From a virus: a DNA stretch of 42,028 nt. The DNA lies in the IMG/VR virus record IMGVR_UViG_3300029914_000060, positions 1 to 42,028 of that record. One strand, given 5' to 3'. The notes beneath the pieces were generated by a model. The model was not told where the DNA came from. It was given only the letters and a program-made list of their open reading frames with translations, and searched no databases. Made by a program: the position numbers and the translations under genes. This document shows, piece by piece, positions 7,389 through 42,028 of the stretch (the stretch's first letter is position 1; each line of letters begins with the position of its first letter).

Positions 7389-7410
7389 TTAATTTTACGA
7401 GGGGGCTGAG

Positions 7411-7894: not shown

Positions 7895-7904
7895 CTGAAT
7901 GCTG

Positions 7905-7933: not shown

Positions 7934-7942
7934 GTGTGCCTC

Positions 7943-8077
7943 ATGAAGAGAACGAACTATTATTTTCCAGATCAGATGCTAAAGCGCGTCAAGCAGGCTT
8001 GCGCGATCATTGGAATCCCGATGAGCGAATTCATCCGCCGTGCAGTAGAAGCCGCACTAAAGGAGGAAAAGCTGTGA
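7943..8077 (+). CDS. Ribbon-helix-helix protein coupled to TnpB (44 aa)
   Basis: Reads MKRTNYYFPDQMLKRVKQAC and continues IIGIPMSEFIRRAVEAALKE, the strand-helix-helix pattern of a minimal CopG/Arc-type DNA-binding protein. It lies ahead of the TnpB-like gene, whose GTG start overlaps its stop (GTGA), so the two are translationally coupled. It may repress the promoter at 7905. A frame containing these bases in phase with TnpB is a shadow and should not be taken as an N-terminal extension of TnpB. Confidence 0.7.
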   Translation: MKRTNYYFPDQMLKRVKQACAIIGIPMSEFIRRAVEAALKEEKL

Positions 8078-9129: not shown

Positions 9130-9170
9130 CTCCGACCGGAATCCCCACGCCTTCAGGCGTGAGGAGGTTC
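9020..9170 (+). ncRNA. Putative guide (omega/re) RNA scaffold of the TnpB element
   Basis: TnpB guide RNAs come from the 3' end of the gene and the right end of the element. Here the end carries a hairpin TCC-C-CACGCC-TTCA-GGCGTG-A-GGA (9142-9165), preceded by CGACCGGAA, the same arrangement as in known scaffolds. The 5' boundary is a guess. Bases after about 9166 would be the guide, and these belong to the gene at 9119. Confidence 0.55.
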
Positions 9171-9343
9171 AGAAGTCGTTTGCTGATTACTGGATAGAGC
9201 ATTTTGATACGCTGGACGAGGAAGCGAAGCCTGTTTTCCTGCTGAAACTGAAGCGCGAATGGCGCGAAGAGGGAAATCACGACGCGATGGACGCGTTCTT
9301 GCAGTTGTGCAGCAAGTGGATGAGCGAACCAATACCAAAGTGA
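9119..9343 (+). CDS. Small gene before the large terminase, 5' end altered by the TnpB element
   Basis: The 74-residue frame starts at ATG 9119 inside the TnpB coding end; its first 16 or so codons are the element's palindrome, while the rest (DYWIEHFDTLDEEAKPVFLL onwards) looks like an ordinary acidic, helical phage protein. It ends four bases into the terminase start (GTGA). Its position suggests a small packaging protein, but no small-terminase helix-turn-helix is visible. The original N-terminus may have been replaced when the element arrived. Confidence 0.55.
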   Translation: MPHNSDRNPHAFRREEVQKSFADYWIEHFDTLDEEAKPVFLLKLKREWREEGNHDAMDAFLQLCSKWMSEPIPK

Positions 9344-11130
9344 GCGGTTTCAATCTCAAGAACTTCTGGAAATTCGCGGCCTCCCTCAAGGTTGACACGA
9401 AGGAATCCGACCAGATAACGCTGGCACAGGAAAACCTCCTCGGCACGCAAATCTACATGATAGAGGAGATTGCGAAGGGGATAGAGGAGGGTGTTCACCA
9501 CTTCGTAATACTAAAGGGCAGGCAGCTTGGCATCACCACTATCTCAATCGCGCTCGACCTTTACTGGGCGATGAAGCACAAGGGCATGTCGGGTTCTCTC
9601 GTGACGCACACAGAAGAAGCAAGGGAGATGTTCCGCGCCACCATCACGATGTACATGGAGTCGCTCCCCGACGAATGGCGCGTACCGATCGTCACCCACA
9701 ACCGAACTCAACTGGTTCTTAAAAACCGAAGCCGATTTTCATATCAGGTTGCGGGAACCCGAAAAAACAGTAAACTTGGGAAAGGGCAAGCACTCACTTT
9801 TCTTCATGCGACCGAGGTTTCGGAGTTTGGAGACGAGGAGGGCATGGCATCACTGGAAGCCTCTCTTGCAGAAAACAATCCGAACCGTCTGTTCATCTAC
9901 GAGTCAACGGCCGAGGGGATGAACCATTATGTTGATATGTGGGAAAATGCCAAGTCAGCGACCACGCAGCGTGCGATATTCATAGGTTGGTGGCGGCATC
10001 AGGGATACCGCAAGAAGAAGGGCACGCAGGAATACCGCGTTTACTGGGATGGCAAACTCACGCACGAGGAGCGCAAGTGGGTGACGCAGGTAAAGAAGTT
10101 GTACAATTTCGACGTGGACGACGAACAGATTGCATGGTGGAGATGGAACCTTGCCGAAAAGACGCGTGACGAACAGCTTATGTATCAAAACTTCCCGCCG
10201 ACGGAAGATTATGCGTTCGTCATGTCTGGTACTAATTTTTTTAATCCATCGCGCATTACTGACGAGTACAAGGTTGCTATCAAGATTCCGGTGAGCAATT
10301 TCCGCTTCGTCCTGCGGCAGAACTTCGAGGACACGGAACTGACCGGCTGCAACGAAAAGATGGCTAATTTGAAAATATGGGACTTTCCGCAACACGGGGG
10401 TCATTATGTTATCGGAGCAGACCCCGCGTATGGTTCTTCAGAATGGGCCGACCGATTCTGCGCATCAGTGTTCCGTTGTTATAGCGACGGCATGGAACAG
10501 GTGGCAGAGTTCAATACGGCAGATTGTTCTCCTTATCAGTTTGCCTGGGTTGTTTGCTATCTTGCAGGAGCGTACATGATGAACGGCGCGTCCACCTGTA
10601 TGCTGAACCTTGAGATTAACGGGCCGGGACAGGCGGTGCTGACCGAGATGAACCAGCTAAAGCGCGTCGCGGCCAATGCGAAGGGCGGGAATTCGCGCGG
10701 GATACTCGACGTGGTGGCCAACATACAGAACTTCATGTACAAGCGGCAGGACTCGTTCGGGGCACCAAGCGCGTACCACACACTTTCCAATACGCGCGAG
10801 AAAGAGCGTATGTTCAACTGCTTCAAGGACGGCTTCGAGCGCGGTATGATACGCGTGAAATCGCCCGGCTGCATCGACGAGATGAAAAATATCATCAGGG
10901 AAGAGGGCTATCTGGGCGCGCCCGGCAGAGGCAAGGACGATCGCATCGTGGCGGCAGGACTGGCGACCGTGACGTGGATTGATTATGTGAGAATACGCAT
11001 GGTGCAAATGCAACTGAGCCGCGAAAACTGCATGAAAAGGGATGCAGAGGGCAAGAGCGGGGGCGGGACGGAAAGAACTGTCGAACGGTACCTCCAGCAG
11101 ATAGGAGTGGGTCAGGGGATGCCGCGATGA
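9340..11130 (+). CDS. terL: Terminase large subunit
   Basis: The packaging motor ATPase/nuclease that pumps DNA into proheads. From the GTG at 9340 (GTGA overlap with the previous stop) the protein is 596 residues; an ATG at 9259 in the same frame is an alternative but lacks a ribosome site. A P-loop variant LKGRQLGITT lies at about residues 58-67. C-terminal nuclease signatures are IGADPAYGSS, LEINGPG and GKDDR, giving the three acidic residues of the RNase H-like fold. Full length for the family. Portal and capsid genes follow in normal order. Confidence 0.92.
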   Translation: MSGFNLKNFWKFAASLKVDTKESDQITLAQENLLGTQIYMIEEIAKGIEEGVHHFVILKGRQLGITTISIALDLYWAMKHKGMSGSLVTHTEEAREMFRATITMYMESLPDEWRVPIVTHNRTQLVLKNRSRFSYQVAGTRKNSKLGKGQALTFLHATEVSEFGDEEGMASLEASLAENNPNRLFIYESTAEGMNHYVDMWENAKSATTQRAIFIGWWRHQGYRKKKGTQEYRVYWDGKLTHEERKWVTQVKKLYNFDVDDEQIAWWRWNLAEKTRDEQLMYQNFPPTEDYAFVMSGTNFFNPSRITDEYKVAIKIPVSNFRFVLRQNFEDTELTGCNEKMANLKIWDFPQHGGHYVIGADPAYGSSEWADRFCASVFRCYSDGMEQVAEFNTADCSPYQFAWVVCYLAGAYMMNGASTCMLNLEINGPGQAVLTEMNQLKRVAANAKGGNSRGILDVVANIQNFMYKRQDSFGAPSAYHTLSNTREKERMFNCFKDGFERGMIRVKSPGCIDEMKNIIREEGYLGAPGRGKDDRIVAAGLATVTWIDYVRIRMVQMQLSRENCMKRDAEGKSGGGTERTVERYLQQIGVGQGMPR

Positions 11131-11645
11131 TTTGCATAAGCCCCGGCAAGGGCGGCAGGTACGGCCCGCACAAGGTACGCGTCATTCTGGAAAAGGACGG
11201 CTCAACACAAAGCTGGGAAAGTGAGTACCCAATATACTCGCAAGACGAGCTACGACGCCGTATAGCCAGATACCGAGGCACCCCGTCGAGTAATGGAATA
11301 CCGAAAAAGCCGAGTACGGTTCTGGCGATACTGGACATAACCTATCTGGCCAACATAGATCGATGCAATAAGAATTTTTGGGATTTCATGAAGAACAAGC
11401 ACACTTTCGGTGAAAAGGTGTCGAGGCGTCTTAGCCGGGCGGTGTACCTGTGTGATTCGGGCAGGGTGCGCAAATTCCAGTGGAAGTGGTATGCGATTTA
11501 CGACAAGCCTTGGAAACCGGCGGTGAAGGAGATGCGCGTGAATGTTAATTTTTTGAGCGGCGTGACGATAGTCAAGCCTGTTCCTGAAGCAAAATTTGAA
11601 ACGATGCCCACATTTGCCGAACTGTTCGGACGGAGGAATAAATAA
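11127..11645 (+). CDS. Hypothetical protein between terminase and portal (172 aa)
   Basis: Starts MICISPGKGGRYGPHKVRVI, overlapping the terminase stop by ATGA. It has alternating strands and helices, including FQWKWYAIYDKPWKPAVKE, and no membrane segment. I do not recognise it. Its position suggests a packaging or head-assembly accessory protein. Confidence 0.75.
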   Translation: MICISPGKGGRYGPHKVRVILEKDGSTQSWESEYPIYSQDELRRRIARYRGTPSSNGIPKKPSTVLAILDITYLANIDRCNKNFWDFMKNKHTFGEKVSRRLSRAVYLCDSGRVRKFQWKWYAIYDKPWKPAVKEMRVNVNFLSGVTIVKPVPEAKFETMPTFAELFGRRNK

Positions 11646-12079
11646 TGCCCGCTTTAAACGATTACATCTGTGCCGTTCACGGCAAGTTCGATTCCTTCAC
11701 CGGAAAGTGTCCGCACGGCTGCGGTAAGGAGTTGGTGCAAAAAATCTTATCCGCTCCAGCCCTGCTTTCGGGGCGCACAAGGAGCATTGACAAGACGGTG
11801 CGCGACTTGGCCAGCGATGCCGGTGTTACAAACCTGAACAACAGGGGCGGGCAGGCGGCTTTCCAGTACGATACCAATATGGACAAGGCGGCAGACGACA
11901 TGCGCCGGCAGATGATGAGCGGGCAGACGTATGCGGGCGCACTCAACGGAGGGGAAAACGCCATAGCGGGCACACTTGCAGAGAATCATCTTCAGGGGGA
12001 CAATGCCTTCGCTCAAGTCAAGGACTTGATGACGCAACCAAAACCGATCGTGCATGGCGCATGGGACGGAAAGGATTAA
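11645..12079 (+). CDS. Zinc-ribbon-containing head-region protein (144 aa)
   Basis: The first 30 residues (YICAVHGKFDSFTGKCPHGC) supply a Cys/His set that probably binds zinc. The rest is alanine- and glycine-rich with amphipathic stretches (MDKAADDMRRQMMSG). It shares a base with the previous stop and is followed closely by the portal gene. Proteins of this form occur beside portals in related phages as far as I recall; the function is not known to me. Confidence 0.7.
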   Translation: MPALNDYICAVHGKFDSFTGKCPHGCGKELVQKILSAPALLSGRTRSIDKTVRDLASDAGVTNLNNRGGQAAFQYDTNMDKAADDMRRQMMSGQTYAGALNGGENAIAGTLAENHLQGDNAFAQVKDLMTQPKPIVHGAWDGKD

Positions 12080-29905: not shown

Positions 29906-32900
29906 ATGTCAGCCACACCTTTAATACCCAACAACATCGGCAACTACCGCTTCCTGACCGGCACGAACTTCGAGAAGGGTATCGTGGCTCACGCGGGCGG
30001 CGGACAGGCGCTTGCATACCCAATTACCGCACAGATGAGCCGCATCGACACGGTTGTTACAGCGGGCGACTCGGTGGTGTTGCCGAAAATCCTCTTGTAT
30101 GGCGTGGCACAGGCCAACAATGCTGCGCAAGGACAACTGTTGTTTATCTACAACAACACGTCGAATTCGTGCGCGGTCTATTCCAACACGAACGATACAC
30201 TGAACATTTCCGGTGCCGGAGTATCGCTATCCCTGCCTGCTGGCGGCACGATGATCGCATACCCGATTGACTACAATCAGTCAACGAACATCGGAGTGTG
30301 GAACGCTATACTGTCCACATCAGTTCCGGCGGGCTACTCCACCGACCAGAACGGGAATGTGACTGGGTTGGTTGGTCCTAATACGAATCCTGTTCCATTT
30401 TCTACATCCATAGCAGCATCATACTTTAACATCTTACCTACGAATGCAGACAACACAGCAGGATTTGCGGCTCTTGCCACTTATCTTGCAGGTCGGATGG
30501 CTGGTAATAGACCAAAAATTACTTTTCCAGCAGGAACCTTTTACGCTCAATCAATTAGTTTAAGTGTCAGTTCTTTAACAGGTGCGGGGATTTACCCAAC
30601 AGTTAATTTTGAAGGGGCAGGCCCAACGGAGACATTGTTTAGCGCGTTGACTCTGCCAGGTAGCCCGACTTCATCTGTGTTCTTTTCAATCGCTGCTTCC
30701 TATGTGCAAGGCATTAAGATAGATGGTATAGGACTCGTAGGAAACTCTAGTAATACTTTACAAGATGGTTTAGCTATATATGCCGATGTTTTAACTACTA
30801 ACAATACGGGTGGATTAAGTGATGGTATCTTTGAGCATGTAACTATATCTGGTTTTACTGGTCGGCAAATGTGGACAAAAGGAGGTTCATACAACGCTCT
30901 TTTCCCGATTCAGTTTTCCAAGTTTGATAGTATCGGTTTTTCTCGTCCAACAAGTGTTGGTTATCCCTGTTTGGAAATGTTAGGGCAAACCGGACAAATA
31001 AGTTTTATGGGTGGTTCCTATTTGAATGGAACAAATATAAGCACCAATGGGGGTCCCAACTTGGTTGTATCGCAAGACCATCGGTGGCAAGTATTACAAC
31101 CAACCACAGAGTACCCAACCACTACAAGTACCACCCCCTCTTTCGGGGCTTGTTATTGGACTTCAAACTCATACAACTATCCATCTGAAACTCCTTTAAG
31201 GGTTGTACCAGTTCAGGGTCAGTCGCTTCTTTTCCCATCGACTTCTGCTGTCCCTCAACTAGCTATAGGCACAACTTATTGGCTTACAAGAATGAATTTA
31301 TGGGGAGATTCGCTTTCTGTCAGTTTAAATGACACTGATTTTACTTTAGCAACTTCTCCCGCTTTGGCAGGTACAGAAGTTTATAGCTCGACTGGCGCAG
31401 TAACCATTTCTGGGACTACCCTAACATTGGCGGGTGCTAACGCTTCTCTTGTGGCAGGTCAAAACATAACTATAAATAATGCAGGAACATTTAATGTCTT
31501 TAGGAATAGTACCGGAGGCATATCACAGTACGCGCCTTTTACAACTTCCATCGCAACTTATGCTGGCGGAACTTCAGTAACGCTGGCAGGATCGGCTCCA
31601 ACCTCTTTTACCAGTCAAGCATATTCTTATTCAGCTCGAAATGTTGTAACTTACGCAACAGCGGGAACTCCTACCAGTTACCAGTTTATTCCTTTGTGGT
31701 CTGCTCCTCCTGTAACAGATGGAACTGCATTAACGATACTTACATACAGCGAGAATCATCGTTTAATCACAGGTGATCCCATACGTTCTATCGGACTAAC
31801 AACTAACATTACGAATGCCAGTTTAACTACTAATACAACTTACTATGTAAGACGAATCAATCATACTCAATTTCAATTGTATGATACATTAGCACACGCT
31901 ATTGCTGTCAGTGGTAACACAGGCGTTGTAGTTTTAACAGGTAACGCAACAGACTGGAATAACTTTGGTTTTGTATTGAATGATGGGACACAAAATGGAA
32001 TTGCTGGGACAAATCCAACAGGGTTAGTGGCACAAGTCCCTTACACCATAATTAGTGACAACTTAACATCACAAAATTCTGAGACTGGTGTTTATTTTAA
32101 CAGTGTAACTGACTGTCGTATTACCCCTCACTTTGAACAAACCAGAAGAAATTTAGAAGCGTTTAACGCATCAAATGTAAATATTATAGGTGGTCATTTT
32201 ACTGGGTCTCTGGATGCAGGAAGAGGCTCTGCGGTTATAAGCTCTGGCACTAATACTAATGTTACTGTAATGGGGAATCCCGAACTTGCCGCTTATGATA
32301 GGGTAATTTGGTCAATCAATGGTGGCACTTTTAATATAGATGATAACTCCCCCTTTTGGGTGCTTAATGACGCTGTTTCTTATGGCATTCGTGCAATAGG
32401 AGCGACTAAACAAGTTTCGGTAAGTACTAATGCGATTACTACAAATAGAGCAAAGACGGTTTTTATAAACCCAAGTGCCAACTATATTGCCGCTCTAATA
32501 AGTAATCAATATTCGGGCGCTCTAGTAACTACACGATGTCATACAGGTTCTCCTTATTATGTTGATTTTTATGGGAACGGAACACAAGGAAATTTATCTT
32601 TTTCCGTGAATAACCAAAACCTGTTTTTGGGTGGAGCATTCCGTATGCGTATGCACCTAAATGCTGTTGCCACCTGGAAGGCTTCGGATACAGATATTAA
32701 TGGCTGGGAATTGGTTGGGACAACAGGGAATGTTAAATATTGGCAATATGTGCCTACGGCAACAGCTACCACATCAGGGACATTTACTGTATCCGGAACT
32801 AACCTACTGACTGTAACTGGAACTGTTACGGGTCAAATATGCCCTGGAATGACTATTTCTGGCGGCGGTACTGCGGGAGTTATACAATCTATAGGAAGTG

Positions 32901-33265
32901 CAGGTACAACTGGACTAGGCGGGACAGGCACTTATGCTGTAACAGCAGGAACAAACGGAACAGCTACAACGCTTACCCTTACCAACATCATTCCAACCAT
33001 AGGAGGTGGTGACGTAGAAGTTGATCCTCTTATAGCTGGTGTTACTGTTAATGCTCCGGTAGGAAGCGCATCATCATTGCTCGGTCAAACACTCAATTTT
33101 CATTTTTTACAAAATGGAACTGGTGGTTATACCGTAACAATGAATGCCGTATATAAAGGCACTGCTCCCGGTTCTGGGACAGCAGGTCAACAAATATGGC
33201 TTAGTTATAAATCAGATGGAACTGGAAATTGGTACTTGGTAAGTAATTCTGGTTGGCTAACTTAA
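29906..33265 (+). CDS. Tailspike / receptor-binding protein (1119 aa)
   Basis: The largest gene here. Residues 1-150 (MSATPLIPNNIGNYRFLTGT onward) look like a conserved virion-attachment domain and keep the base composition of the neighbours. From about residue 150 the sequence turns into long beta-helix-like repeats (ITFPAGTFYAQSISLSVSSL, GIKIDGIGLVGNSSNTLQDG) of the pectate-lyase-like kind seen in tailspikes that bind or cleave surface glycans. The C-terminal 150 residues (GTFTVSGTNLLTVTGTVTGQ) are another beta module. No catalytic residues can be assigned. DNA coding for the distal part is clearly richer in A and T, so it was probably exchanged with other phages. Confidence 0.75.
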   Translation: MSATPLIPNNIGNYRFLTGTNFEKGIVAHAGGGQALAYPITAQMSRIDTVVTAGDSVVLPKILLYGVAQANNAAQGQLLFIYNNTSNSCAVYSNTNDTLNISGAGVSLSLPAGGTMIAYPIDYNQSTNIGVWNAILSTSVPAGYSTDQNGNVTGLVGPNTNPVPFSTSIAASYFNILPTNADNTAGFAALATYLAGRMAGNRPKITFPAGTFYAQSISLSVSSLTGAGIYPTVNFEGAGPTETLFSALTLPGSPTSSVFFSIAASYVQGIKIDGIGLVGNSSNTLQDGLAIYADVLTTNNTGGLSDGIFEHVTISGFTGRQMWTKGGSYNALFPIQFSKFDSIGFSRPTSVGYPCLEMLGQTGQISFMGGSYLNGTNISTNGGPNLVVSQDHRWQVLQPTTEYPTTTSTTPSFGACYWTSNSYNYPSETPLRVVPVQGQSLLFPSTSAVPQLAIGTTYWLTRMNLWGDSLSVSLNDTDFTLATSPALAGTEVYSSTGAVTISGTTLTLAGANASLVAGQNITINNAGTFNVFRNSTGGISQYAPFTTSIATYAGGTSVTLAGSAPTSFTSQAYSYSARNVVTYATAGTPTSYQFIPLWSAPPVTDGTALTILTYSENHRLITGDPIRSIGLTTNITNASLTTNTTYYVRRINHTQFQLYDTLAHAIAVSGNTGVVVLTGNATDWNNFGFVLNDGTQNGIAGTNPTGLVAQVPYTIISDNLTSQNSETGVYFNSVTDCRITPHFEQTRRNLEAFNASNVNIIGGHFTGSLDAGRGSAVISSGTNTNVTVMGNPELAAYDRVIWSINGGTFNIDDNSPFWVLNDAVSYGIRAIGATKQVSVSTNAITTNRAKTVFINPSANYIAALISNQYSGALVTTRCHTGSPYYVDFYGNGTQGNLSFSVNNQNLFLGGAFRMRMHLNAVATWKASDTDINGWELVGTTGNVKYWQYVPTATATTSGTFTVSGTNLLTVTGTVTGQICPGMTISGGGTAGVIQSIGSAGTTGLGGTGTYAVTAGTNGTATTLTLTNIIPTIGGGDVEVDPLIAGVTVNAPVGSASSLLGQTLNFHFLQNGTGGYTVTMNAVYKGTAPGSGTAGQQIWLSYKSDGTGNWYLVSNSGWLT

Positions 33266-33303
33266 CAATCCCCTACACAGAGAGGGCAAGGAGGGAACAA
33301 ATA

Positions 33304-33429
33304 ATGAACGGAACACCAGAAAGGCGAGCGCGAATACTGGGTGATGAAGACATCGAGGCCATACGAACACAGTTTCAATCCCCGCAACATAGCGGAGAAG
33401 GGAATAAGAATGAGTCCGGACAACTTTGA
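33304..33429 (+). CDS. Small hypothetical protein in lysis region (41 aa)
   Basis: Starts MNGTPERRARILGDEDIEAI, after AAGGAGGGAACAAATA, an ideal ribosome site. It overlaps the next gene by 20 bases. Polar and helical, without a membrane segment. Possibly a regulator of lysis by translational coupling; no family recognised. Confidence 0.55.
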   Translation: MNGTPERRARILGDEDIEAIRTQFQSPQHSGEGNKNESGQL

Positions 33430-33646
33430 AAGACGTAGTGAACTGAACGATGTAGCTTTTGGCAGATTGCTCGAGGGTCAGGAGACCATGAAGAGGCAGA
33501 TGGACGTTCTGACCACGAAAGTCGAAACGATAGAAACTCGGCTCAACACTGGGAAAGGGTTCGCTACCGGAGCCGCTATCGGCCTTGCATCACTCGGCGG
33601 AAGTGTGGGAGCCTTTGTTCATAAAATGCTGGAGAATGTGAAATGA
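33410..33646 (+). CDS. Holin-like or lysis accessory protein, coiled coil plus TM (78 aa)
   Basis: Start at ATG 33410 (MSPDNFERRSELNDVAFGRL), with AAGGG seven bases upstream. A helical N-terminal part with a coiled-coil pattern (MKRQMDVLTTKVETIETRLN) leads to one hydrophobic segment (GFATGAAIGLASLGGSVGAF), a layout reminiscent of XhlA-type proteins. It overlaps the lysin gene by ATGA. Confidence 0.6.
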   Translation: MSPDNFERRSELNDVAFGRLLEGQETMKRQMDVLTTKVETIETRLNTGKGFATGAAIGLASLGGSVGAFVHKMLENVK

Positions 33647-34026
33647 CTTGGACATATTCTCAATCAACCGGACAACTATCTGATGCGGACGGTAATTTAG
33701 TCGCTACAGGATACTCTGGGGGAAATTGCGGGAAGAACCCCGACGGTGTCAATAACCCGGCGCTCCAAGACCAAGCCTGTATCGGCCCGTTACCACAAGG
33801 TTTTTATGGCTTGGGTGTTCCCCAGGACAATCCGCGACTCGGCCCTTACGCCATACCGCTTACACCTGACGCAACCAACGAGATGTACGGACGTTCAGGA
33901 TTCTTTGTGCATGGCGACACTTCCGCGATGGATAGGAGTGCCAGCGAGGGATGTATCATCATGCCTAGAACGGTGAGGGAGCAGATGTACAATTCACAAG
34001 ACCACACGTTACAGGTGGTTGTATGA
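33643..34026 (+). CDS. Putative cell-wall enzyme, YkuD/Tlde1 (DUF2778)-like
   Basis: A 127-residue protein. Near residues 86-105 it has GRSGFFVHGDTSAMDRSASE followed by GC, a His ... Ser-x-Gly-Cys pattern like the L,D-transpeptidase/carboxypeptidase fold of DUF2778 proteins, which attack peptidoglycan. The N-terminal part (WTYSQSTGQLSDADGNLVAT) is also characteristic of that family. Sitting between two holin candidates, it is the best endolysin candidate. No signal peptide, so a holin would have to release it. Activity is inferred. Confidence 0.7.
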   Translation: MTWTYSQSTGQLSDADGNLVATGYSGGNCGKNPDGVNNPALQDQACIGPLPQGFYGLGVPQDNPRLGPYAIPLTPDATNEMYGRSGFFVHGDTSAMDRSASEGCIIMPRTVREQMYNSQDHTLQVVV

Positions 34027-34076
34027 ACCAGTTTGAGGACGATGATATTGATTTGGGCGAATGGGGCTTAGCCTGA
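34023..34076 (+). CDS. Acidic micro-ORF (17 aa)
   Basis: Reads MNQFEDDDIDLGEWGLA and overlaps the lysin stop by ATGA. Extremely acidic. It could be a real peptide or merely a coupling frame for the next gene. Low confidence. Confidence 0.3.
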   Translation: MNQFEDDDIDLGEWGLA

Positions 34077-34077
34077 T

Positions 34078-34212
34078 GTGTCTAGAGGCTATGTGCGATG
34101 TTATAAATGTCATACATGGCAAAAGTTCCATGATCGATGTTTCATTTGTGGTGCATATTTGAAAGGAGTATCAACATGGCAAGTGTACGTGAAGTTTTGG
34201 CGGCCAAGATAG
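34078..34212 (+). CDS. Putative zinc-ribbon protein (44 aa), GTG start
   Basis: From GTG 34078 the frame reads SRGYVRCYKCHTWQKFHDRC followed by FICG, i.e. CxxC-x10-CxxC, a classic zinc ribbon that would not be expected by chance. It overlaps the next gene by 37 bases and lacks a good ribosome site. A competing ATG frame at 34077 (28 codons) has no such pattern. Confidence 0.45.
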   Translation: MSRGYVRCYKCHTWQKFHDRCFICGAYLKGVSTWQVYVKFWRPR

Positions 34213-34343
34213 CAGCAGGTGAGGCAGACTTAGCCTCTTTGAAAAACGACTTGGCAGCAGAAGAAGCAAAGGCTAGGACTTGGCTCGATCAAGAAGTTGA
34301 AGGCATAAAGGAATTTTTTGCAAATATCGGCAAACATCTTTAG
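34176..34343 (+). CDS. Small helical protein (55 aa)
   Basis: Starts MASVREVLAAKIAAGEADLA with AAAGGAG as ribosome site; a continuous amphipathic helix (SLKNDLAAEEAKARTWLDQE) ends in a weakly hydrophobic tail. Located in the lysis region. No family recognised; a small coiled-coil accessory is likely. Confidence 0.6.
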   Translation: MASVREVLAAKIAAGEADLASLKNDLAAEEAKARTWLDQEVEGIKEFFANIGKHL

Positions 34344-34352
34344 GAGAATGAA

Positions 34353-34640
34353 ATGGCAAATACAGTAGAAGTAACGGTTGTAGGCACAGTGCAAGCGGTT
34401 GCGGCGACTGACATACCTGAAAGTATAGTAGTCACGCTTGAAGGTCAGACTAATGTCACCTTGCCCATCTCTGGCCCTTATGTAGCGACATTTAGCAATG
34501 TTGCAGATGGAACTTACAACGGAACAGTGCAGTCAGCAAGGGCTGATGGTAGTTTGATTGGTACAGCAATCGCCTACACAGTAACGGCTCTTAATGCTTT
34601 TGTTCCTGCGAGTGTTACGGTAAATGTTACCTCAGCATAA
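34353..34640 (+). CDS. Small Ig-like beta protein (95 aa)
   Basis: Alternating strands (VEVTVVGTVQAVAATDIPES, GPYVATFSNVADGTYNGTVQ) ending VPASVTVNVTSA look like one immunoglobulin-like domain, common on phage surfaces. AGGAGAATGAA is the ribosome site. It could be a displayed virion protein, despite lying among lysis genes. Confidence 0.6.
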   Translation: MANTVEVTVVGTVQAVAATDIPESIVVTLEGQTNVTLPISGPYVATFSNVADGTYNGTVQSARADGSLIGTAIAYTVTALNAFVPASVTVNVTSA

Positions 34641-34642
34641 TC

Positions 34643-34732
34643 ATGTGCTGGCTGGTTAGATGGTGGGAAAGGAAGTGCCTTAAACGGCATAAAGTATTTG
34701 TTCCTCTTTGCGTGATGATAAAGGTGAAATGA
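34643..34732 (+). CDS. Micro-ORF before the holin (29 aa)
   Basis: Reads MCWLVRWWERKCLKRHKVFV and ends inside the ATG of the holin gene (TGATG). Basic and aromatic, perhaps membrane-surface active. It may exist mainly to couple translation. Low to moderate confidence. Confidence 0.4.
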   Translation: MCWLVRWWERKCLKRHKVFVPLCVMIKVK

Positions 34733-35109
34733 TGGACATTACTGGAATTGGTACGGCAGCGGAAGCGGCGAAGAGTATAATCGGGATGTTCTTCCCCGAT
34801 AAAACGGCAGAGGATCAAGCGAAACTCTCTGCCTCTCTTGCGCTGTTGAATGCCCAGACTAATATCGATACGGCGGAGGCGCAATCAAGTGATCCTCTTC
34901 AACACTGGAGAGGTGGACTTGGCTGGGTATGTGCGTTTGCATACTTCTGGAACTTTGTCGGTCAACCGCTGATTATTGCTTTCGCTATCCTGTTCGGGCA
35001 TCCAGTTACCCTCCCACAGCTCGACATCGGTCCACTAAGCACCCTAACGCTTGGAATGCTCGGACTGGGTGGTCTACATGTTGCCGAACGGATTAAGGGC
35101 GTATCGTAG
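34729..35109 (+). CDS. Holin, 3-TM (GTA_holin_3TM-like)
   Basis: The 126-residue protein has an N-terminal helix followed by two or three membrane segments. DPLQHWRGGLGWVCAFAYFW and LSTLTLGMLGLGGLHVAERI match the pattern of the phage/GTA 3-TM holin family, which permeabilises the inner membrane at lysis. It is the last rightward gene, and its stop lies 12 bases before attC-like site G, where the leftward genes end. Confidence 0.75.
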   Translation: MMDITGIGTAAEAAKSIIGMFFPDKTAEDQAKLSASLALLNAQTNIDTAEAQSSDPLQHWRGGLGWVCAFAYFWNFVGQPLIIAFAILFGHPVTLPQLDIGPLSTLTLGMLGLGGLHVAERIKGVS

Positions 35110-35121
35110 TCATTCAGCCAA

Positions 35122-35185
35122 ACCTAACGTTCGAGCGGGACTGCCGCGAAGCAGCCCGCGTCAGCCCCTCAACTCTACGTTAGAG
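35122..35185 (+). repeat. attC-like site G
   Basis: ACCTAAC (35122-35128), TTCGAGCGGGACTGCCGCG, GAAGC, then AGCCCGCGTCAGCCCCTCAAC and core GTTAGAG (35179-35185). The left arm TTCGAG has one more base than its partner CTCAA, as in genuine attC sites. It separates the end of the rightward late genes from the leftward array, and the stop region of the minus-strand gene at 35161 lies inside. Confidence 0.8.
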
Positions 35186-35445
35186 CGCACCCGCGTTTGC
35201 GCCCCGTGAAATCCATCCCACTGCCTATCGGTCAATCGCGCGGCGTGATCTACCACAACTCCGGTCAACTCAAGTCCTCTCCAGCGATCCTCAAGCCATG
35301 TCGGTGCTTTTATCTGCAAGTCCTCGCGTCCAATTTTGCGCGCCAGCCAGATTGGATAATCCGTTTGATTGTTACACCAAACAAAGACCGATCCTTTCGG
35401 TGCTGCCTCCATTTGCCGCGTTGTTTCCCCGGTTCCTCGTTCCAT
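35161..35445 (-). CDS. Hypothetical protein in attC-bounded unit (94 aa)
   Basis: Starts MERGTGETTRQMEAAPKGSV, then FVWCNNQTDYPIWLARKIGR, and ends SNVELRG inside site G. TACGGAGATTAAC is the ribosome site within the leader shared with the gene at 1040. The opening resembles phage proteins with a degenerate P-loop-like strand (KGSVFVW), but no full motif is present. Function unknown. Confidence 0.7.
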   Translation of the reverse strand: MERGTGETTRQMEAAPKGSVFVWCNNQTDYPIWLARKIGREDLQIKAPTWLEDRWRGLELTGVVVDHAARLTDRQWDGFHGAQTRVRSNVELRG

Positions 35446-35468
35446 GTTAATCTCCGTAGTAAAGTTCC

Positions 35469-35528
35469 GTCTAACCCGCCGTTCGAGTCGGACGCGATGA
35501 AGCCGCGCCGCTCAACTCTACGTTAGAG
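35469..35528 (+). repeat. attC-like site F
   Basis: GTCTAAC (35469-35475), TTCGAGTCGGACGCG, loop ATGAAGC, CGCGCCGCTCAACTCTAC, core GTTAGAG (35522-35528). Both cores are intact and the arms are complementary. The left arm has the extra base. Confidence 0.8.
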
Positions 35529-35759
35529 GGCTTCCCATTGCGCGCAGTCGTACATCAACTTCGTGCCTTCCGGCAATGCGTCAATCCCGCAATAAATTCC
35601 ATCGTCAGGGTCGCGCACATTGTGTTTGCACGTTTTGCAGCCTTTTCGTGCAGGGTTCATCCTGCATCGCTGCTCATGCTCCGTCATGCGTTTTTTGCTC
35701 ACGACGGCGCAATGCCCGCACCTGTGTTCGCAAAGGTAAGCTGTCGTTTTTCTTGGCAT
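35523..35759 (-). CDS. Cysteine-rich zinc-binding protein (78 aa)
   Basis: ATG 35759 (MPRKTTAYLCEHRCGHCAVV) follows GGGG by six bases. It has CEHRCGHC, a His/Cys pair HEQRC, then GCKTCKH and a later DDGIYCG...DCAQWE. The tail resembles the small protein at 38293. Two zinc sites are likely. The stop lies in attC-like site F. Function unknown. Confidence 0.7.
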   Translation of the reverse strand: MPRKTTAYLCEHRCGHCAVVSKKRMTEHEQRCRMNPARKGCKTCKHNVRDPDDGIYCGIDALPEGTKLMYDCAQWEAL

Positions 35760-35766
35760 CAAAATC

Positions 35767-35851
35767 CCCTAACTTTACGCTCTAGCGAAGCGCCCGAAGC
35801 GTGGTTTTTCAATCAAAAATTTATACGCGCCCGCTCAACTACACGTTAGGC
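35767..35851 (+). repeat. attC-like site E
   Basis: CCCTAAC (35767-35773), CTCTAGCGAAGCGCCCG, a longer AT-rich loop, GCGCCCGCTCAACTACAC and core GTTAGGC (35845-35851). About 85 bases, longer than its neighbours. Extra base in the left arm (CTCTAGCG against CGCTCAA). Confidence 0.75.
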
Positions 35852-36159
35852 ACCTCGCCACAATTGGCGCATCGCCCATTAATTCGCTCATGTCCCCACT
35901 GGTTACACGTTGGGCAGGTTATCGGGCATTCGATAGCGTGCGGCTCGTCTTCGGCGAGTTTTTTCATGTCAGCTTCGAGCATCAGCCAGGGCGATTTTCT
36001 CAATCGTCGCACGGCGGTATCAAGCCAGTCGTTGTCGTACCATCCGCCAACGATTCGATGCGCGATCTTCCTAGCCTCTTTTGCTGTGTGAGCGAAGATT
36101 AAACATGCACCCTCTTCGCTTCCTGCGCCACGGCTAAAACCCATGTAAATGTTTAACAT
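35839..36159 (-). CDS. Zinc-ribbon protein in attC-bounded unit (106 aa)
   Basis: Starts MLNIYMGFSRGAGSEEGACL; the middle (FAHTAKEARKIAHRIVGGWY) is helical, and the C-terminus has CPITCPTCNQWGHERINGRC and ANCGE, a CxxC...CxxC ribbon. The leader GGAACTACGGAGTAGAA is the shared one. The stop lies in attC-like site E. Function unknown. Confidence 0.75.
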   Translation of the reverse strand: MLNIYMGFSRGAGSEEGACLIFAHTAKEARKIAHRIVGGWYDNDWLDTAVRRLRKSPWLMLEADMKKLAEDEPHAIECPITCPTCNQWGHERINGRCANCGEVPNV

Positions 36160-36179
36160 TTCTACTCCGTAGTTCCGGT

Positions 36180-36243
36180 GTCTAACCCATCATTCAAGAG
36201 GGACAGGCCAAAAGCGGCCTGCCCCTTAATTCAAGCGTTGTGC
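36180..36243 (+). repeat. attC-like site D
   Basis: GTCTAAC (36180-36186), TTCAAGAGGGACAGGCC, AAAAGC, GGCCTGCCCCTTAATTCAAGC and core variant GTTGTGC (36237-36243). The pattern reads like the classical 59-base element. The last codons and stop of the minus-strand gene at 36231 fall within it. Confidence 0.85.
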
Positions 36244-36539
36244 GTCACAGCATTTATGAGCTTCGGTTGCAGCATTTCAAGTTGTTCCCGCAGCCCTTCA
36301 AACCATTCTGGTGTGCCGCTGCCGGCCTCGGTATATGCAAATGCCGCTGCAGTGTATTTTGTGAGTTCCAGAGCCTCAATTACCAGTGTGCGCAGTTCAT
36401 CACGCTCGTTGTGGAGATCACCAACAATCTCACTCGGGCAATCCATCGGACGCCATCCTTTATCGGCATACGTTTCTATCGCCCTCATTAAAGCTCGGCC
36501 TACATCTGCCATATCATCATCATTAAATTCTTGTACCAT
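36231..36539 (-). CDS. Hypothetical protein in attC-bounded unit (102 aa)
   Basis: Starts MVQEFNDDDMADVGRALMRA with GGAGAGGAAAACGAT as ribosome site. Acidic and helical (LHNERDELRTLVIEALELTK), no cysteine pairs. Ends ...AVTHNA within site D. The leader is a shortened version of the shared one. Function unknown. Confidence 0.7.
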   Translation of the reverse strand: MVQEFNDDDMADVGRALMRAIETYADKGWRPMDCPSEIVGDLHNERDELRTLVIEALELTKYTAAAFAYTEAGSGTPEWFEGLREQLEMLQPKLINAVTHNA

Positions 36540-36559
36540 ATCGTTTTCCTCTCCGTTGA

Positions 36560-36604
36560 AAGTACAGGCCAGAAGCGGCGCAGCCCCTTAGCTCCACGTT
36601 ATGC
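36560..36604 (+). repeat. attC-like half site H
   Basis: ACAGGCCAGAAGCGGCGCAG, CCCCTTAGCTCCAC and core GTTATGC (36598-36604). The left core (YYYAAC) is missing, replaced by the leader of the minus-strand gene at 36231, so the site is truncated. Confidence 0.6.
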
Positions 36605-37192
36605 CCCAGCAAAGCGATGATCTGATGGCATCGTTATTCTTGCGAAAACTCTGTGTACATCCTCGCTTACAGGGATCGACTCATGTACAAAGTGATTGTT
36701 CCCGTAATAAACGGTGTTGCGCTTTAGCATAAAAGGTTCATTCAAACTGATTGCGCTACAATCACCGCCGACTCCGGGCAATCCATCGAATTCCCCAATC
36801 CATCCAAGACAAGATTCAAAGTTTGATGCCAAAATTATTCCGCCAGTTTCCGAGCCATATAACCTCATGTGATCTGGTGACGTTATTGCTGGCCCATTTT
36901 CCCCTACCTTCCACCCACCACCACCACCCCAATCTAAGACATTCCTGTCGTAGCTTCCGTCTGTATGTGCGCCGCCGCGCCGGAGTGTTTCGTTTTTCTT
37001 TAGTGTCTTTCCGTGTACGGTTAAAAATGCAGTGCCGCCAGCGTGTTTTATGTTCGCAAGCAGCTTTTCCGCCACGACTTTAAAATCATCACGCAACCCG
37101 TTAAGGGTGTGCAGGTCAAATGGCATCATCGAAAATTCACCGTCAAACATCGGCAACGCAATCTCGTTCGTAACAACAGCGATACTCTTCAT
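36599..37192 (-). CDS. 2-oxoglutarate/Fe(II) oxygenase-like protein (197 aa)
   Basis: Start ATG 37192 (MKSIAVVTNEIALPMFDGEF), AAAGGATAATCAAA upstream. The pattern His76-x-Asp78 (RRGGAHTDGSYD) and His170 (NNHFVHESIP), with Arg residues at 181 and 185, matches the metal- and 2-oxoglutarate-binding set of this superfamily. I recall similar phage proteins but no known substrate. It could modify nucleotides, DNA or proteins. The stop is inside half site H. Confidence 0.65.
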   Translation of the reverse strand: MKSIAVVTNEIALPMFDGEFSMMPFDLHTLNGLRDDFKVVAEKLLANIKHAGGTAFLTVHGKTLKKNETLRRGGAHTDGSYDRNVLDWGGGGGWKVGENGPAITSPDHMRLYGSETGGIILASNFESCLGWIGEFDGLPGVGGDCSAISLNEPFMLKRNTVYYGNNHFVHESIPVSEDVHRVFARITMPSDHRFAGA

Positions 37193-37203
37193 TTTGATTA
37201 TCC

Positions 37204-37259
37204 TTTCATTCAAGCGGGACAGGCCAAAAGCGGCCTGCCCCTTAATTCAAACGTTGTGC
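37204..37259 (+). repeat. attC-like site I (left core lost)
   Basis: ATTCAAGCGGGACAGGCC, AAAAGC, GGCCTGCCCCTTAATTCAAAC and core GTTGTGC (37253-37259). Arms are nearly identical to site D, but the left core reads GATTATCC. The stop of the minus-strand gene at 37247 lies inside. Confidence 0.75.
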
Positions 37260-37471
37260 GCCTTCCGATATTTATCATTTCTCCGTAACTGCCATTCTCC
37301 AATTCCGATTGTTTCTATACAATATTTGTCAGGATCACTCCATGCGTATGGGTCATAGCAACTGCAAGATAGCGCCTCAAGAGTCTGCGCGCATACTGGG
37401 AAGCACATTAAATCATGCCCTACCACTTTTATTTTTCCAGAATAAAATCCGTTCTTGTTATTCGTCCTCAT
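37247..37471 (-). CDS. Hypothetical cysteine-containing protein (74 aa)
   Basis: ATG 37471 (MRTNNKNGFYSGKIKVVGHD), AAGGAACGGTG upstream, overlapping the end of the Lar-like gene by 14 bases. Contains MCFPVCAQTLEALSCSCYDP, four or five cysteines that could bind metal. Ends RKAHNV in site I. The longer frame from 37522 is a shadow. Function unknown. Confidence 0.65.
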   Translation of the reverse strand: MRTNNKNGFYSGKIKVVGHDLMCFPVCAQTLEALSCSCYDPYAWSDPDKYCIETIGIGEWQLRRNDKYRKAHNV

Positions 37472-37796
37472 CACCGTTCCTTTTATTCCAAATCTCGGAA
37501 AGAGAAATATGCGGGTCATCACCGGCCTCGAATCTTAATTGGGTGGTAATTCTACATTCCGCGTTAGAGCATTCTATAAACCATCCGCCAACACTGGTAT
37601 CAATTAGCGGGTCGCCTTCGATCATATCGAAAAACGCATTACTTCCGCAACAAGGGCACGGCTTTAGCGTTGTATCATTTTCATCGTTCATTGCGGCGAG
37701 TTCTGCTACCTTGTCTGTCCGCCATTGTAACGCATGTCGTAATTCTCTCCGTAGTTCCACTATATTCAATAAGTCGACTTCATCAGGCTCTAGCAT
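37458..37796 (-). CDS. Lar-like restriction-alleviation protein (112 aa)
   Basis: ATG 37796 (MLEPDEVDLLNIVELRRELR) with AAAGGAG upstream. The second half, LKPCPCCGSNAFFDMIEGDP and then WFIECSNAEC, is the zinc-ribbon signature of Lar-type proteins, which in lambda-family prophages reduce host type I restriction. The N-terminal 50 residues are helical. The shared cassette leader GGAACTACGGAGAGA lies inside the coding region near 37745-37759, hinting at a past fusion of two units. Antirestriction is inferred from family and from the neighbouring methyltransferase. Confidence 0.7.
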   Translation of the reverse strand: MLEPDEVDLLNIVELRRELRHALQWRTDKVAELAAMNDENDTTLKPCPCCGSNAFFDMIEGDPLIDTSVGGWFIECSNAECRITTQLRFEAGDDPHISLSEIWNKRNGDEDE

Positions 37797-37797
37797 T

Positions 37798-38007
37798 CTA
37801 ATCTCCTTTACTTGTAGTTTTAGCACCTTGAATTCTCCCATACTCGAAGTATCGGGTAACCTCTCCTGCTACAAGATGCCCCGTTGATCTGGCGTGGCTA
37901 GCGGCTTGCCTTCTCGCTGTCTTGTAGTCTTGAAATTCTTTTCCGCAAACCGTGCAAGCCGCAATCACGCCCAAAACCAACCCGGTACGCTGACTTTTAA
38001 CTTTCAT
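37798..38007 (-). CDS. C2H2-type zinc-finger protein (69 aa)
   Basis: Starts MKVKSQRTGLVLGVIAACTV with AAGGAGAACGGGAA upstream. CTVCGKEFQDYKTARRQAAS then HARSTGH gives a single C-x2-C...H-x5-H finger, with a basic tail. Unusual for phages but seen in small DNA-binding proteins. Directly precedes the Lar-like gene. Confidence 0.65.
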   Translation of the reverse strand: MKVKSQRTGLVLGVIAACTVCGKEFQDYKTARRQAASHARSTGHLVAGEVTRYFEYGRIQGAKTTSKGD

Positions 38008-38018
38008 TTCCCGTTCTC

Positions 38019-38083
38019 CTTAGCGGATTATTGGCCAGGTGTGTTTGATGTTTAGTACACCTGACCTCTACTTTACGTTGTGC
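38019..38083 (+). repeat. attC-like site J (degenerate)
   Basis: CTTAGC, ATTGGCCAGGTGTG, loop, ACACCTGACCTCTACTTTAC and core GTTGTGC (38077-38083). The arms CAGGTGT/ACACCTG are perfect, but the left core is altered. Confidence 0.55.
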
Positions 38084-38084
38084 G

Positions 38085-38189
38085 TCATTCCGCAAATCCA
38101 TTAGTTTTTAAAGTGCCGCGCTTATCGCCAGCATCAATTGCTCTGGCAGCGTCGGCTATTGCCACTGGTAGCCCCGGCGTGCCGCTCAC
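38085..38189 (-). pseudogene. Truncated cassette-gene remnant (34 codons)
   Basis: From a GTG the frame reads SGTPGLPVAIADAARAIDAG and ends TNGFAE, protein-like, with no ribosome site and its 5' part overlapping an attC-like arm. It ends just before core GTTGTGC of site J, where intact cassette genes end. Probably the 3' tail of a gene lost by recombination. Confidence 0.4.
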
Positions 38190-38202
38190 TTTTACGTTAT
38201 GC
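38150..38202 (+). repeat. attC-like half site K
   Basis: GCCCCGGCGTGCCGCTCACTTTTAC ends in core GTTATGC (38196-38202). The matching left arm and core cannot be recognised with confidence. Lies between two gene remnants. Confidence 0.4.
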
Positions 38203-38265
38203 CCCTTCGGGCGGTTTCAGTTTGTGCCGCTCTTTTAAAGCCTCTTCGATACATTCCAGCGGGAC
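38197..38265 (-). pseudogene. Truncated cassette-gene remnant (22 codons)
   Basis: Reads VPLECIEEALKERHKLKPPE then GA and a stop in core GTTATGC of half site K. An in-frame TAG two codons upstream (38269-38271) and the lack of a start show that the 5' part is missing. Looks like a surviving 3' end of a former cassette gene. Confidence 0.4.
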
Positions 38266-38298
38266 TGGCTACGCCGGCCCCTTAGCTAAACGTTAGCC
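38244..38298 (+). repeat. attC-like site L (left core degenerate)
   Basis: ATTCCAGCGGGACTGGC, TAC, GCCGGCCCCTTAGCTAAAC and core GTTAGCC (38292-38298). The stop of the minus-strand gene at 38293 is inside the core. This is the last such site before the methyltransferase gene. Confidence 0.6.
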
Positions 38299-38433
38299 GA
38301 CAAGCACCCAGTTCATACACTCAGTTTTTCCGGTGATATGCTTTTCTCGCCGGGGGTCTCCAATTTTCATGGGTGCCATACAATACCAGCCGTTGGCTGA
38401 TCTCATTGGGTAGGCGCAGTTATGGCAAATCAT
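38293..38433 (-). CDS. Small zinc-binding protein (46 aa)
   Basis: ATG 38433 (MICHNCAYPMRSANGWYCMA) overlaps the methyltransferase stop (ATGA). CHNC, then YC and a late EC suggest a four-Cys metal site; it resembles the tail of the protein at 35523. The stop TAA lies in core GTTAGCC of site L. It may belong to the last cassette or to the methyltransferase operon. Function unknown. Confidence 0.65.
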   Translation of the reverse strand: MICHNCAYPMRSANGWYCMAPMKIGDPRREKHITGKTECMNWVLVG

Positions 38434-39467
38434 GCTAATCCCGCTCTCCGAGCAAGCAGCACAAAAGCAATTGCTGCCTGTTCCGGAACAACTCCGTTGC
38501 CGACGCACTTGAGGCGCTCTTTTTGGTTGCCGAAGTCCAGTCCAGCGGCATCCCCATCAGCCATTCTGAAAAGTACGGATTGAGCCTCTTTGTATGCAAT
38601 CTGGGCGACATGTTGACCTTCAATGCTGAGAGCAGGGCTTCGCCATGGTTCTGAGGCGATGATGTCGCCCCATCGCGTGTCGCTTGGGCCAGGGGCGAAA
38701 AGTGGTATGCAGCACCGATCAAACCCACTTGATTGCTGTTTTTCGTTACTTTGTGACCATCGTCTGCCGCCATTGGTGGCGGCCAGTTGTGCGCCTGTGA
38801 GTTCAGGTCTATCGTGTAGCCCTGTTCCAGTTTCCGTTGATAGTTCCCGCTCTCCGATGAGTCTGGATTCTTCGAATCTCGCGCTTGAGGGGTCGCCCAG
38901 TCTCTCTCTCCACGCAATGCAGAACCATCTTGCTCTGCCGTGGCTGGCACCCACATCGGACGCTGAAATAGTGATCCATTCCGCGTCCCACCCGCAGTCG
39001 GCCAATTCTCCCACGACGCGGGCGGCGGCTCTTTCGTCAAGTTCGCCTTCCGTTTCGTCCATAACGGTGGCGGTGGCAGAAGCGATGCCTGCGACGTTCT
39101 CCAAAAAAATGAGCCTCGCACCGCTATCGGTTGCGATTCTGACAACCTCAAAGAAAAGGCCGCTGCGTTTTCCGTCAAGGCCAGCGCGCCGTCCGGCGAC
39201 CGATAAGTCTTGGCATGGGAATCCTGCAACGATGCAATCCACTTTCCCACGCCAAGCTCTTGCGTCGAAGGTGGTAACATCGGCCCAGATAGGCGCTTCG
39301 TCCAGGCTTCCCTCTTCCATGCGCGCAACCAGAACTGAGGCCGCGTAAGCTTCCCGCTCAACGTAGCAACAAGAGCGATGCCGGATGCCCAAATATTCAA
39401 GTCCGCCACGGAATCCCTCTCCAAGCATTCCTGTTCCGGCAAACAATTCAATGGAATGTAGAGCCAC
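38430..39467 (-). CDS. dcm: DNA (cytosine-5) methyltransferase
   Basis: From GTG 39467 the protein has 345 residues and the ordered C5-methylase motifs: SIELFAGTGMLGEGF (motif I, residues 5-19, AdoMet binding), AGFPCQDLSVAGRR with catalytic Cys85 (motif IV), FLENVAG at 121-127 (motif VI), SHGRARWFCIA (motif VIII region) and VGNGVVPEQAA (motif X). It would methylate cytosines in a specific site, probably to evade host restriction. Start is uncertain: GTG 39476 or 39467, neither with a well-spaced ribosome site. A second long frame on the same strand covers the whole gene (see the entry ending 39469). Confidence 0.88.
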   Translation of the reverse strand: MALHSIELFAGTGMLGEGFRGGLEYLGIRHRSCCYVEREAYAASVLVARMEEGSLDEAPIWADVTTFDARAWRGKVDCIVAGFPCQDLSVAGRRAGLDGKRSGLFFEVVRIATDSGARLIFLENVAGIASATATVMDETEGELDERAAARVVGELADCGWDAEWITISASDVGASHGRARWFCIAWRERLGDPSSARFEESRLIGERELSTETGTGLHDRPELTGAQLAATNGGRRWSQSNEKQQSSGFDRCCIPLFAPGPSDTRWGDIIASEPWRSPALSIEGQHVAQIAYKEAQSVLFRMADGDAAGLDFGNQKERLKCVGNGVVPEQAAIAFVLLARRAGLA

Positions 39468-40994: not shown

Positions 40995-42028
40995 GCTGTC
41001 ACCGCACTAATTTCAGCTTCGAGCTGTTTTCCTTTTGCGGTCAAAAAATATTCCCCTTCGCGGTTTATGTTCCAGACGTTAAGCCAGTCTGGATTTTTGC
41101 AATAATTCATGAAAACGGCACGCCAGTCTTTGTATTTTTTTGGCTTCTTTTTCGCATCCAGCCAATCCCGGCGCTTAAAAGCGTTCCAGCCAACAAACAT
41201 GATTTCGTCTGGAATATTTACTGATTGTGCCCATTTGAAAACAGGATCGTCCTTAGGGATCGGAAGCTCTCCCTTTAATTCGCAGTCTTTCAAGAATTCA
41301 TCAAAAGTGAGTTCTGGAGAGGATTCAACAGATGTTTTTTTATTATCTTTATCTTTATCTTTATCTTTATCTTTATCTTTATCTTTATCTTTATCTTTAT
41401 CTTTATCTTTCGTAGCTACCGTAGACAACGACTTTTCTACGGTAGCTACTACGGTCGCAGTGAACATTGCCTCAGGAAGCTCAGAGATCAGCGCAAGCAT
41501 TGCGGTGTAGTCCTCCACCTCCTTGCTATTCAAGGCCTCTATCACTCGCGAAAGTGCCTCCGTGTACTTGAACCACTCGCCTCGGACCCTTGAGGCGGAA
41601 AAGAGTTTGTGGACCTCAACCTCAGACCTCATGTCGGTCTTTACTGAAGCCAGCAGTTCGTATTTCCCCCCGGCGGCGGTCTGCAAGTCCTTCAGACGAG
41701 ACCATGGATTGCGGCTGACACCAATCTTCACGAGACCAGTGCTACGGCAGACTACGTAGTAAACGTAGTTGCTACCGTAGCCCTTGCTATTGCCATCTCC
41801 ACCTGTTTCAATAGCGGGTTGCCGTTCTTGCCAGCCAGACAGCCGCTGGCCGTCGAGTACGCGGCCCTGCATCGATTCCAAAATGGCGCGGATGTCCTGA
41901 TCCTCAACATCAAGCGCGCTAGCCAAGTCTTCGGAGGACATCGAGAACGTGCCTCGATCCTTGCTCTGAGATGCGTCAACGAGCAGGTGCAGGTAAACAG
42001 CCTTCACTGTGCTGATTGACTGCTTGGA
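40991..42028 (-). CDS. Initiator-like replication protein with GIY-YIG/T5orf172-like insertion (5' end off window)
   Basis: The frame is open to the right edge; a GTG at 42007 has no ribosome site, so the true start is probably outside. Counting from 42007, residues 1-60 form a winged-helix-like region (FSMSSEDLASALDVEDQDIR). Residues 80-150 match the T5orf172/MUG113 GIY-YIG-like domain (YVYYVVCRSTGLVKIGVSRN, RLKDLQ, RGEWF). Then comes a (Lys-Asp)11 linker, and the C-terminal part KKPKKYKDWRAVFMNYCKNP resembles the end of phage replication initiators that load DnaB. It lies directly before dnaB, coupled by ATGA. Initiator role inferred; the nuclease domain in such a protein is unusual. Confidence 0.7.
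   Translation of the reverse strand, partial: SKQSISTVKAVYLHLLVDASQSKDRGTFSMSSEDLASALDVEDQDIRAILESMQGRVLDGQRLSGWQERQPAIETGGDGNSKGYGSNYVYYVVCRSTGLVKIGVSRNPWSRLKDLQTAAGGKYELLASVKTDMRSEVEVHKLFSASRVRGEWFKYTEALSRVIEALNSKEVEDYTAMLALISELPEAMFTATVVATVEKSLSTVATKDKDKDKDKDKDKDKDKDKDKDNKKTSVESSPELTFDEFLKDCELKGELPIPKDDPVFKWAQSVNIPDEIMFVGWNAFKRRDWLDAKKKPKKYKDWRAVFMNYCKNPDWLNVWNINREGEYFLTAKGKQLEAEISAVTA
41345..41410 (-). repeat. Hexanucleotide microsatellite coding (Lys-Asp)11
   Basis: Eleven perfect copies of ATCTTT on the plus strand (AAAGAT on the coding strand) give a Lys-Asp linker in the initiator-like protein. The unit is a multiple of three, so slippage would change linker length without frameshift. 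Confidence 0.9.
41412..41449. repeat. 14-bp perfect inverted repeat inside the initiator gene
   Basis: GTAGCTACCGTAGA (41412-41425) and TCTACGGTAGCTAC (41436-41449) are exact reverse complements with a 10-base spacer, next to the hexamer repeat. A related GCTACCGTAGC occurs near 41771-41781. Such repeats inside an initiator gene recall the lambda O origin. Confidence 0.75.

Follow-up and report, generated by a model that had tools for sequence, protein, structure and literature searches.

Integron-type gene cassettes with reversed gene polarity and no integrase in the early region of a tailed phage

The virus record IMGVR_UViG_3300029914_000060, analysed from position 1 to 42,028 (the window), is a tailed-phage genome in which genes for a DnaB-like helicase, a cytosine methyltransferase, a holin, a terminase and head proteins were identified with PHROGs and Pfam. 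The region 35122–38298 is distal in a block of genes that runs leftward on the minus strand. It carries attC sites of the kind found in integrons, alternating with small genes whose stop codons lie in or beside the site cores. This arrangement had been proposed in a sequence-only reading of the DNA, and covariance models and the sequence itself now bear it out. We consider it probable that the array consists of genuine integron gene cassettes, forming a cluster of attC sites without an integrase (CALIN), which lie with reversed gene polarity in a leftward early operon of the phage and are recombined by an integrase of the host. The kind of element is known: 17 phage CALINs have been reported, in a study in which IntI1 recombined attI1 with five of the six phage attC sites that were assayed (Qi et al., 2023; PMC9892861). 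The earlier reading was right that such an array is present in the phage, but passed over the published examples, which include MW202573 (Myoviridae sp. ctTUS972). What the present analysis adds is the reversed polarity, the alignment of stop codons with the crossover point, a phage subtype of attC and the swapping of cores; that paper makes no mention of reversed polarity (by text search) or of the other three.

The attC sites and the missing integrase

Two covariance models were used. R1, searched with filters off, derives only from plasmid-borne class 1 integrons (11 attC sites), and R2 from other phage contigs (28 sites, none of them from the window). R1 matched the window at five places, all on the plus strand (36180–36243, 46.2 bits, E 7.4e-11; 37196–37259, E 2e-6; 983–1045, E 4e-5; 35469–35528, E 8e-4; 35122–35185, E 0.047), and its remaining scores were at chance level on both strands. 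R2 recovered seven sites with E ≤ 1.2e-3, again all on the plus strand: the best-preserved site at 36180 (E 1.4e-18), 983 (E 5e-16), 37196 (E 9.2e-16), 35469 (E 1.4e-10), 35117–35185 (E 8.4e-10; R' core GTTAGAG at 35179–35185), 38247–38298 (E 4.6e-5) and 1235–1292 (E 1.2e-3). Two further plus-strand sites are marginal, one at 36543–36604 (R2 E 0.41), of which the R' half is intact, and one, marginal or decayed, at 35769–35852 (R2 E 3.4 over 35769–35849), where R2 gives E 0.01 at the same place in the sibling locus L114. Of the nine sites proposed earlier between 35122 and 38298, then, five are well supported (36180, 37196, 35469, 35117 and 38247). Two more are either marginal or decayed, and the others amount to remnants at best. 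The 983 and 1235 sites lie outside that region and had been overlooked. The R2 alignment contains 75 double-changed (compensatory) cells compared with 28 in shuffled alignments, a value reached in none of 500 shuffles. With the R'', L'', L' and R' boxes, a conserved single-strand fold, this covariation and matches to both models, the integron architecture is genuine. A scan of the window against Rfam matched no family at the gathering threshold.

When the 36180 site was compared with plasmids by blastn, six records were obtained. The match lies inside a class 1 array beside intI1 in three of them (L005, L006 and L009), in a class 1 cassette array with no intI1 listed in L007, and in a stretch of a Geoalkalibacter plasmid with no integron integrase listed in L008; the sixth is a second, near-identical Klebsiella match. 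A blastn search of annotated phages with one attC gave no match. In the integron plasmid records the match has the orientation of the window's plus strand, which is therefore the canonical attC top strand. Class 1 cassettes such as aadA1, catB3 and aac(6')-Ib4 resemble the window array in the R''/L''/L'/R' layout, in strand orientation and in being recognized by the same model, but differ in that their resistance genes are sense to attC and that intI1 and attI are present. The Geoalkalibacter subterraneus plasmid pGSUB1 (L008, 6001–6063), from another phylum, holds a single phage-like attC (R2 E 5.5e-12) with the surrounding genes on the opposite strand.

Having at least two attC sites close together and no intI gene, the array is a CALIN and not a complete integron. 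As the earlier reading had noted, no integron integrase is visible: the 42,028-base record, which is incomplete, encodes no tyrosine recombinase detectable with TIGR02249 or PF00589. PF00589 likewise found no match in 13 records, although these are fragments in which absence is not proof, and five further records contain one phage integrase (in G013) and no integron integrase. The G013 tyrosine recombinase was considered as a candidate integron integrase and rejected, being a PHROG 1 phage integrase that scores 30.6 bits against a cut-off of 265. For the description of the phage as virulent-type in the earlier reading, the incomplete record offers the lack of a tyrosine integrase, and one relative, G013, does encode a phage integrase. 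Since the phage records supply no integron integrase, the enzyme would have to come from the host.

Polarity and boundaries of the cassette genes

Codon scores and Shine–Dalgarno sequences place all predicted genes of the array on the minus strand, antisense to the attC top strand, a feature absent from the earlier reading. Genes running in the direction of attC are typical of integron cassettes but not strictly required. Gene calls throughout were our own codon-score calls, made with the same caller for phage and bacterial loci; a longest open reading frame (ORF) test of orientation was dropped for the phages because antisense frames are open and the result is ambiguous. Flanking genes are opposite to attC rather than on the same strand in a ratio of 92:6 in 12 phage loci (MW202573 included), which were gathered by attC patterns of one type, compared with 7:171 in 12 bacterial loci with attC of that type. 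In a fresh set of five further phage contigs, found by a different attC pattern, the ratio is 37:1. Fisher tests give p 1e-56 and 2e-33, values that overstate the certainty because flanks were treated as independent; flanking genes within one array are not independent, and the independent phage records number about 16–17, from several lineages. In G016 and G017, two contigs of the fresh set, sites occur on both strands, and the local genes in every case run the other way. A 61.5 kb phage contig (IMGVR_UViG_3300031949_000035) has 15 attC on one strand in two clusters (L134 and L135, bases 30197–35775 and 47728–52366). Among class 1 cassettes, one of those whose attC comes closest to the phage type (near 5702–5917 in L005, L007 and L009) has an annotated minus-strand, hence reversed, gene (WP_143008597.1), the coding strand of which is uncertain as the sense frame is the longer by longest ORF.

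The ends of the genes are related to the point at which an integron integrase cuts the core (G|TT). In the phage loci, 16 of 47 stop codons fall exactly at the first base after the cut, the gene ending RYYTAA|C, and a further 11 of the 47 fall six bases beyond it, where the stop is supplied by the neighbour's attC. Five window genes end TAA|CG: a 79-amino-acid gene with no assigned function at 35523–35762 (CTCTAA|CG; called by codon score), the 197-amino-acid gene at 36599–37192 (GCATAA|CG), which belongs to PHROG 8970 (E 1.2e-40 for the frame 36599–37213), a possible 71-amino-acid gene at 38293–38508 (GGCTAA|CG), a 56-amino-acid cassette gene at 1040–1210, which ends on the crossover of the 983 site, and a gene at 435–773 ending in a remnant core (GCCTAA|CG), the last two likewise on the minus strand and also supported by codon score. 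The homologue of the 435–773 gene in L001 has no core, and the homology between window 440 and L001 9657 was dropped as a cassette boundary, as it marks merely a gene end. Two genes read through the core to TGA, a 102-amino-acid gene with no assigned function at 36231–36539 (CACAAC|GCTTGA; codon score 11.1) and a possible 91-amino-acid gene at 37247–37522 (CACAAC|GTTTGA), which the codon score does not call. A 106-amino-acid gene at 35839–36159 likewise reads through the core, to TAG, and a 94-amino-acid gene at 35161–35445, supported by codon score and a Shine–Dalgarno sequence, ends inside the 35117 site; neither has an assigned function.

Were units to move as circles, with the cut at G|TT, one would expect R'' of each site to agree with the core on the opposite side of the unit it belongs to, and not with the adjacent R'. 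This is what the phage arrays show: R'' matched the far core of its own unit perfectly in 25 of 41 cassettes and the R' of the same site in two of 41, with mean matches of 3.44 of 4 bases for the own unit, 2.17 of 4 for the same site and 2.29 of 4 for random partners. In the fresh phage set the figures are 13 of 16 and none of 16, giving 38 of 57 and two of 57 for both sets together. Bacterial arrays, as a positive control, gave 128 of 136 for the own unit against 39 of 136 for the same site. The match of R'' to the far core is the footprint of shuffling as circular cassettes.

Origin and present state of the array

Several observations weigh against reading the array as cassettes of reversed polarity recombined by a host enzyme. 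Of the window sites, three or four have lost one box (R'' at 36543, 37196 and 38247; R' at 1235). Folding of single strands, suggested earlier as a check, gave a mixed outcome: the bottom strand of 35117–35185 folds well (z -4.1), those of 36180, 37196 and 983 show no R'–R'' pairing in the predicted fold, and 38247–38298 folds no better than shuffles. The window's R'' boxes match their own far cores at only 3 of 4 bases, and with several boxes decayed the shuffling signal comes from the relatives. Among the arrays compared, no two phages shared an identical cassette. Nor is reversed polarity universal, for the published phage TJE1 has attC and genes on the same strand, and the IMG/VR contig L017, which was left out of the phage counts, is a sense-orientation array with attC of the bacterial type.

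The window array may accordingly be decaying, and at the extreme it would be a fossil, shuffled in the past but with recombination now ended. The lost boxes and the marginal scores at 35769 and 36543 favour such a view, which we nevertheless regard as unlikely, as the arms are kept at 36180, 983, 35469 and 35117 and many intact sites with perfect own-core matches occur in relatives.

The outer arms of the window sites have close counterparts in bacteria. The outer-arm pattern was found in 90 stretches among 84,980 bacterial and archaeal species genomes, mostly of Methylophilaceae and other Nitrosomonadales and many with long arrays, and in ten viral contigs; 12 of the bacterial loci yielded 150 attC matches. 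The sedentary chromosomal integrons of Methylotenera, Methylophilus and other Nitrosomonadales thus share outer attC arms and cores with the window, and phage capture of integron fragments is known (PMC9892861). On these grounds the phage could simply have captured part of an ordinary bacterial chromosomal integron that by chance lies antisense to its operon, an explanation we find a little harder still to credit than a fossil array. A captured piece would bring sense genes, given the 171:7 ratio in bacteria, whereas in the 12 phage loci and the fresh set the coding strand itself is antisense. The sites also differ: with identical outer arms, a terminal structure of 17 nt (CAAAAGCG-type loop) is present in eight of 11 viral sites and none of 171 bacterial sites, nearly all of which have 11–13 nt. 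The three viral exceptions are both such sites of L017 and one in L020, a phage contig with reversed genes (site at 54–113), where the bacterial-type terminal structure is possibly a sign of exchange with the bacterial pool.

The gene content, too, argues against a captured piece. No cassette protein matched the bacterial arrays fetched, and one or more of the cassette genes are widespread in phages: the PHROG 8970 protein has 13 relatives (56–70% identity) in other viral contigs, around which no attC was detected, so that a common phage gene is here in cassette form. The protein encoded at 36231–36539 has no relative in viral contigs except in a sibling contig. A tblastn comparison of phage and bacterial arrays, aimed at shared cassettes, returned only replication and recombination genes, matches of methyltransferase type, an early gene that L001 has in common, and short hits of spurious ORFs over attC. 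The earlier suggestion that the array is a route for the spread of cassettes between bacteria finds no support in these results, the sites being mostly of the phage type.

That the palindromes are instead RNA elements of gene leaders (terminators, or hairpins for processing or translational coupling) with no part in recombination is very improbable: the hairpins do lie mostly a short way upstream of start codons and their fold is conserved with covariation, but conservation extends beyond a stem to the integron R and L boxes and core, a class 1 integron model recognizes the sites, no Rfam family reaches threshold, and an RNA hairpin would give no reason for R'' to match the core at the other end of its cassette in preference to its same-site partner.

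We return, then, to integron cassettes in reversed format. The published phage CALINs (MW202573, TJE1, P12002L and PH101; PMC9892861) resemble the window in having attC clusters without an integrase and with small genes and methyltransferases between them. With the present models, MW202573 too proves to have genes antisense to attC, as does PH101 (H101), although the latter rests on one weak site; TJE1 is unlike the window in this respect. The replicative helicase gene of the window shares 66% DNA identity with that of MW202573, and a helicase search of viral contigs gave no close relatives. In a replication-protein-like gene, a run of TTTATC repeats (41336–41410) encodes a (DK)n stretch.

Cassettes and the early region of the phage

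Array genes of the relatives include a DNA methylase, a SpoU methylase, helix-turn-helix regulators and an RNA ligase. In the window, a Lar-like restriction alleviation gene of 127 amino acids (37458–37841, minus strand; PF14354 E 8e-7, PHROG 599 E 1e-8) is adjoined by a small zinc-finger-like gene of 69 amino acids (37798–38007, minus strand), which has a low codon score (3.2) and lies below Pfam cut-offs. A 310-base segment comprising the zinc-finger gene and the 5' part of the Lar-like gene (37712–38021) recurs with 99.4% identity at 12402–12711 of L112, beyond the window's left end, where it adjoins a remnant core and is fused to a different gene end. L112, like L003, is a sibling contig from sample 3300029953. 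As it is otherwise identical to window 1–11801, the repeat represents a duplication in one genome or two variants.

Along the phage mRNA, each unit consists of an attC, then a ribosome-binding site, then a gene that often ends exactly at the G|TT crossover. Our working hypothesis is that an integron integrase that recognizes attC in its folded, single-stranded form would cut such units out and insert them as circles. The enzyme would be the host's, and that host is probably a betaproteobacterium whose chromosome carries an integron of the Methylophilaceae/Nitrosomonadales kind. A unit that ends at the crossover could be swapped into the operon with its neighbours undisturbed. A simpler advantage of the reversed format would be that a unit closed by its own stop codon, once inserted in a phage operon, has the phage promoter to drive its transcription. 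The placement of the bottom strand during replication may also be relevant to polarity, as in Vibrio and E. coli excision is raised when the attC bottom strand is on the lagging-strand template, and chromosomal integrons preferentially hold it on the leading-strand template (PMC11023631, PMC5371416).

It seems that phages have a cassette pool of their own, in the reversed format, which contains small early genes such as those for anti-restriction proteins, methyltransferases and regulators. It is tempting, if speculative, to go further and suppose that betaproteobacterial phages maintain a dedicated, shared pool by which early counter-defence genes are reshuffled between phages through the host's integron integrase; we hold this to be possible, though somewhat short of an even chance.

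The early regions of phages are mosaics of small anti-host genes, the assembly of which is usually ascribed to illegitimate or homologous recombination. The arrays described here point to a site-specific route of assembly that leaves a readable footprint, with the crossover at the stop codon of the gene and R'' matching the far core of the same unit. Their systematic reversal with respect to bacteria offers a testable case for what determines cassette polarity, be it expression from an operon as opposed to an integron promoter or the strand exposed in replication. If the system is active, host integrons would be a recombination machine that phages borrow to swap their counter-defence genes.

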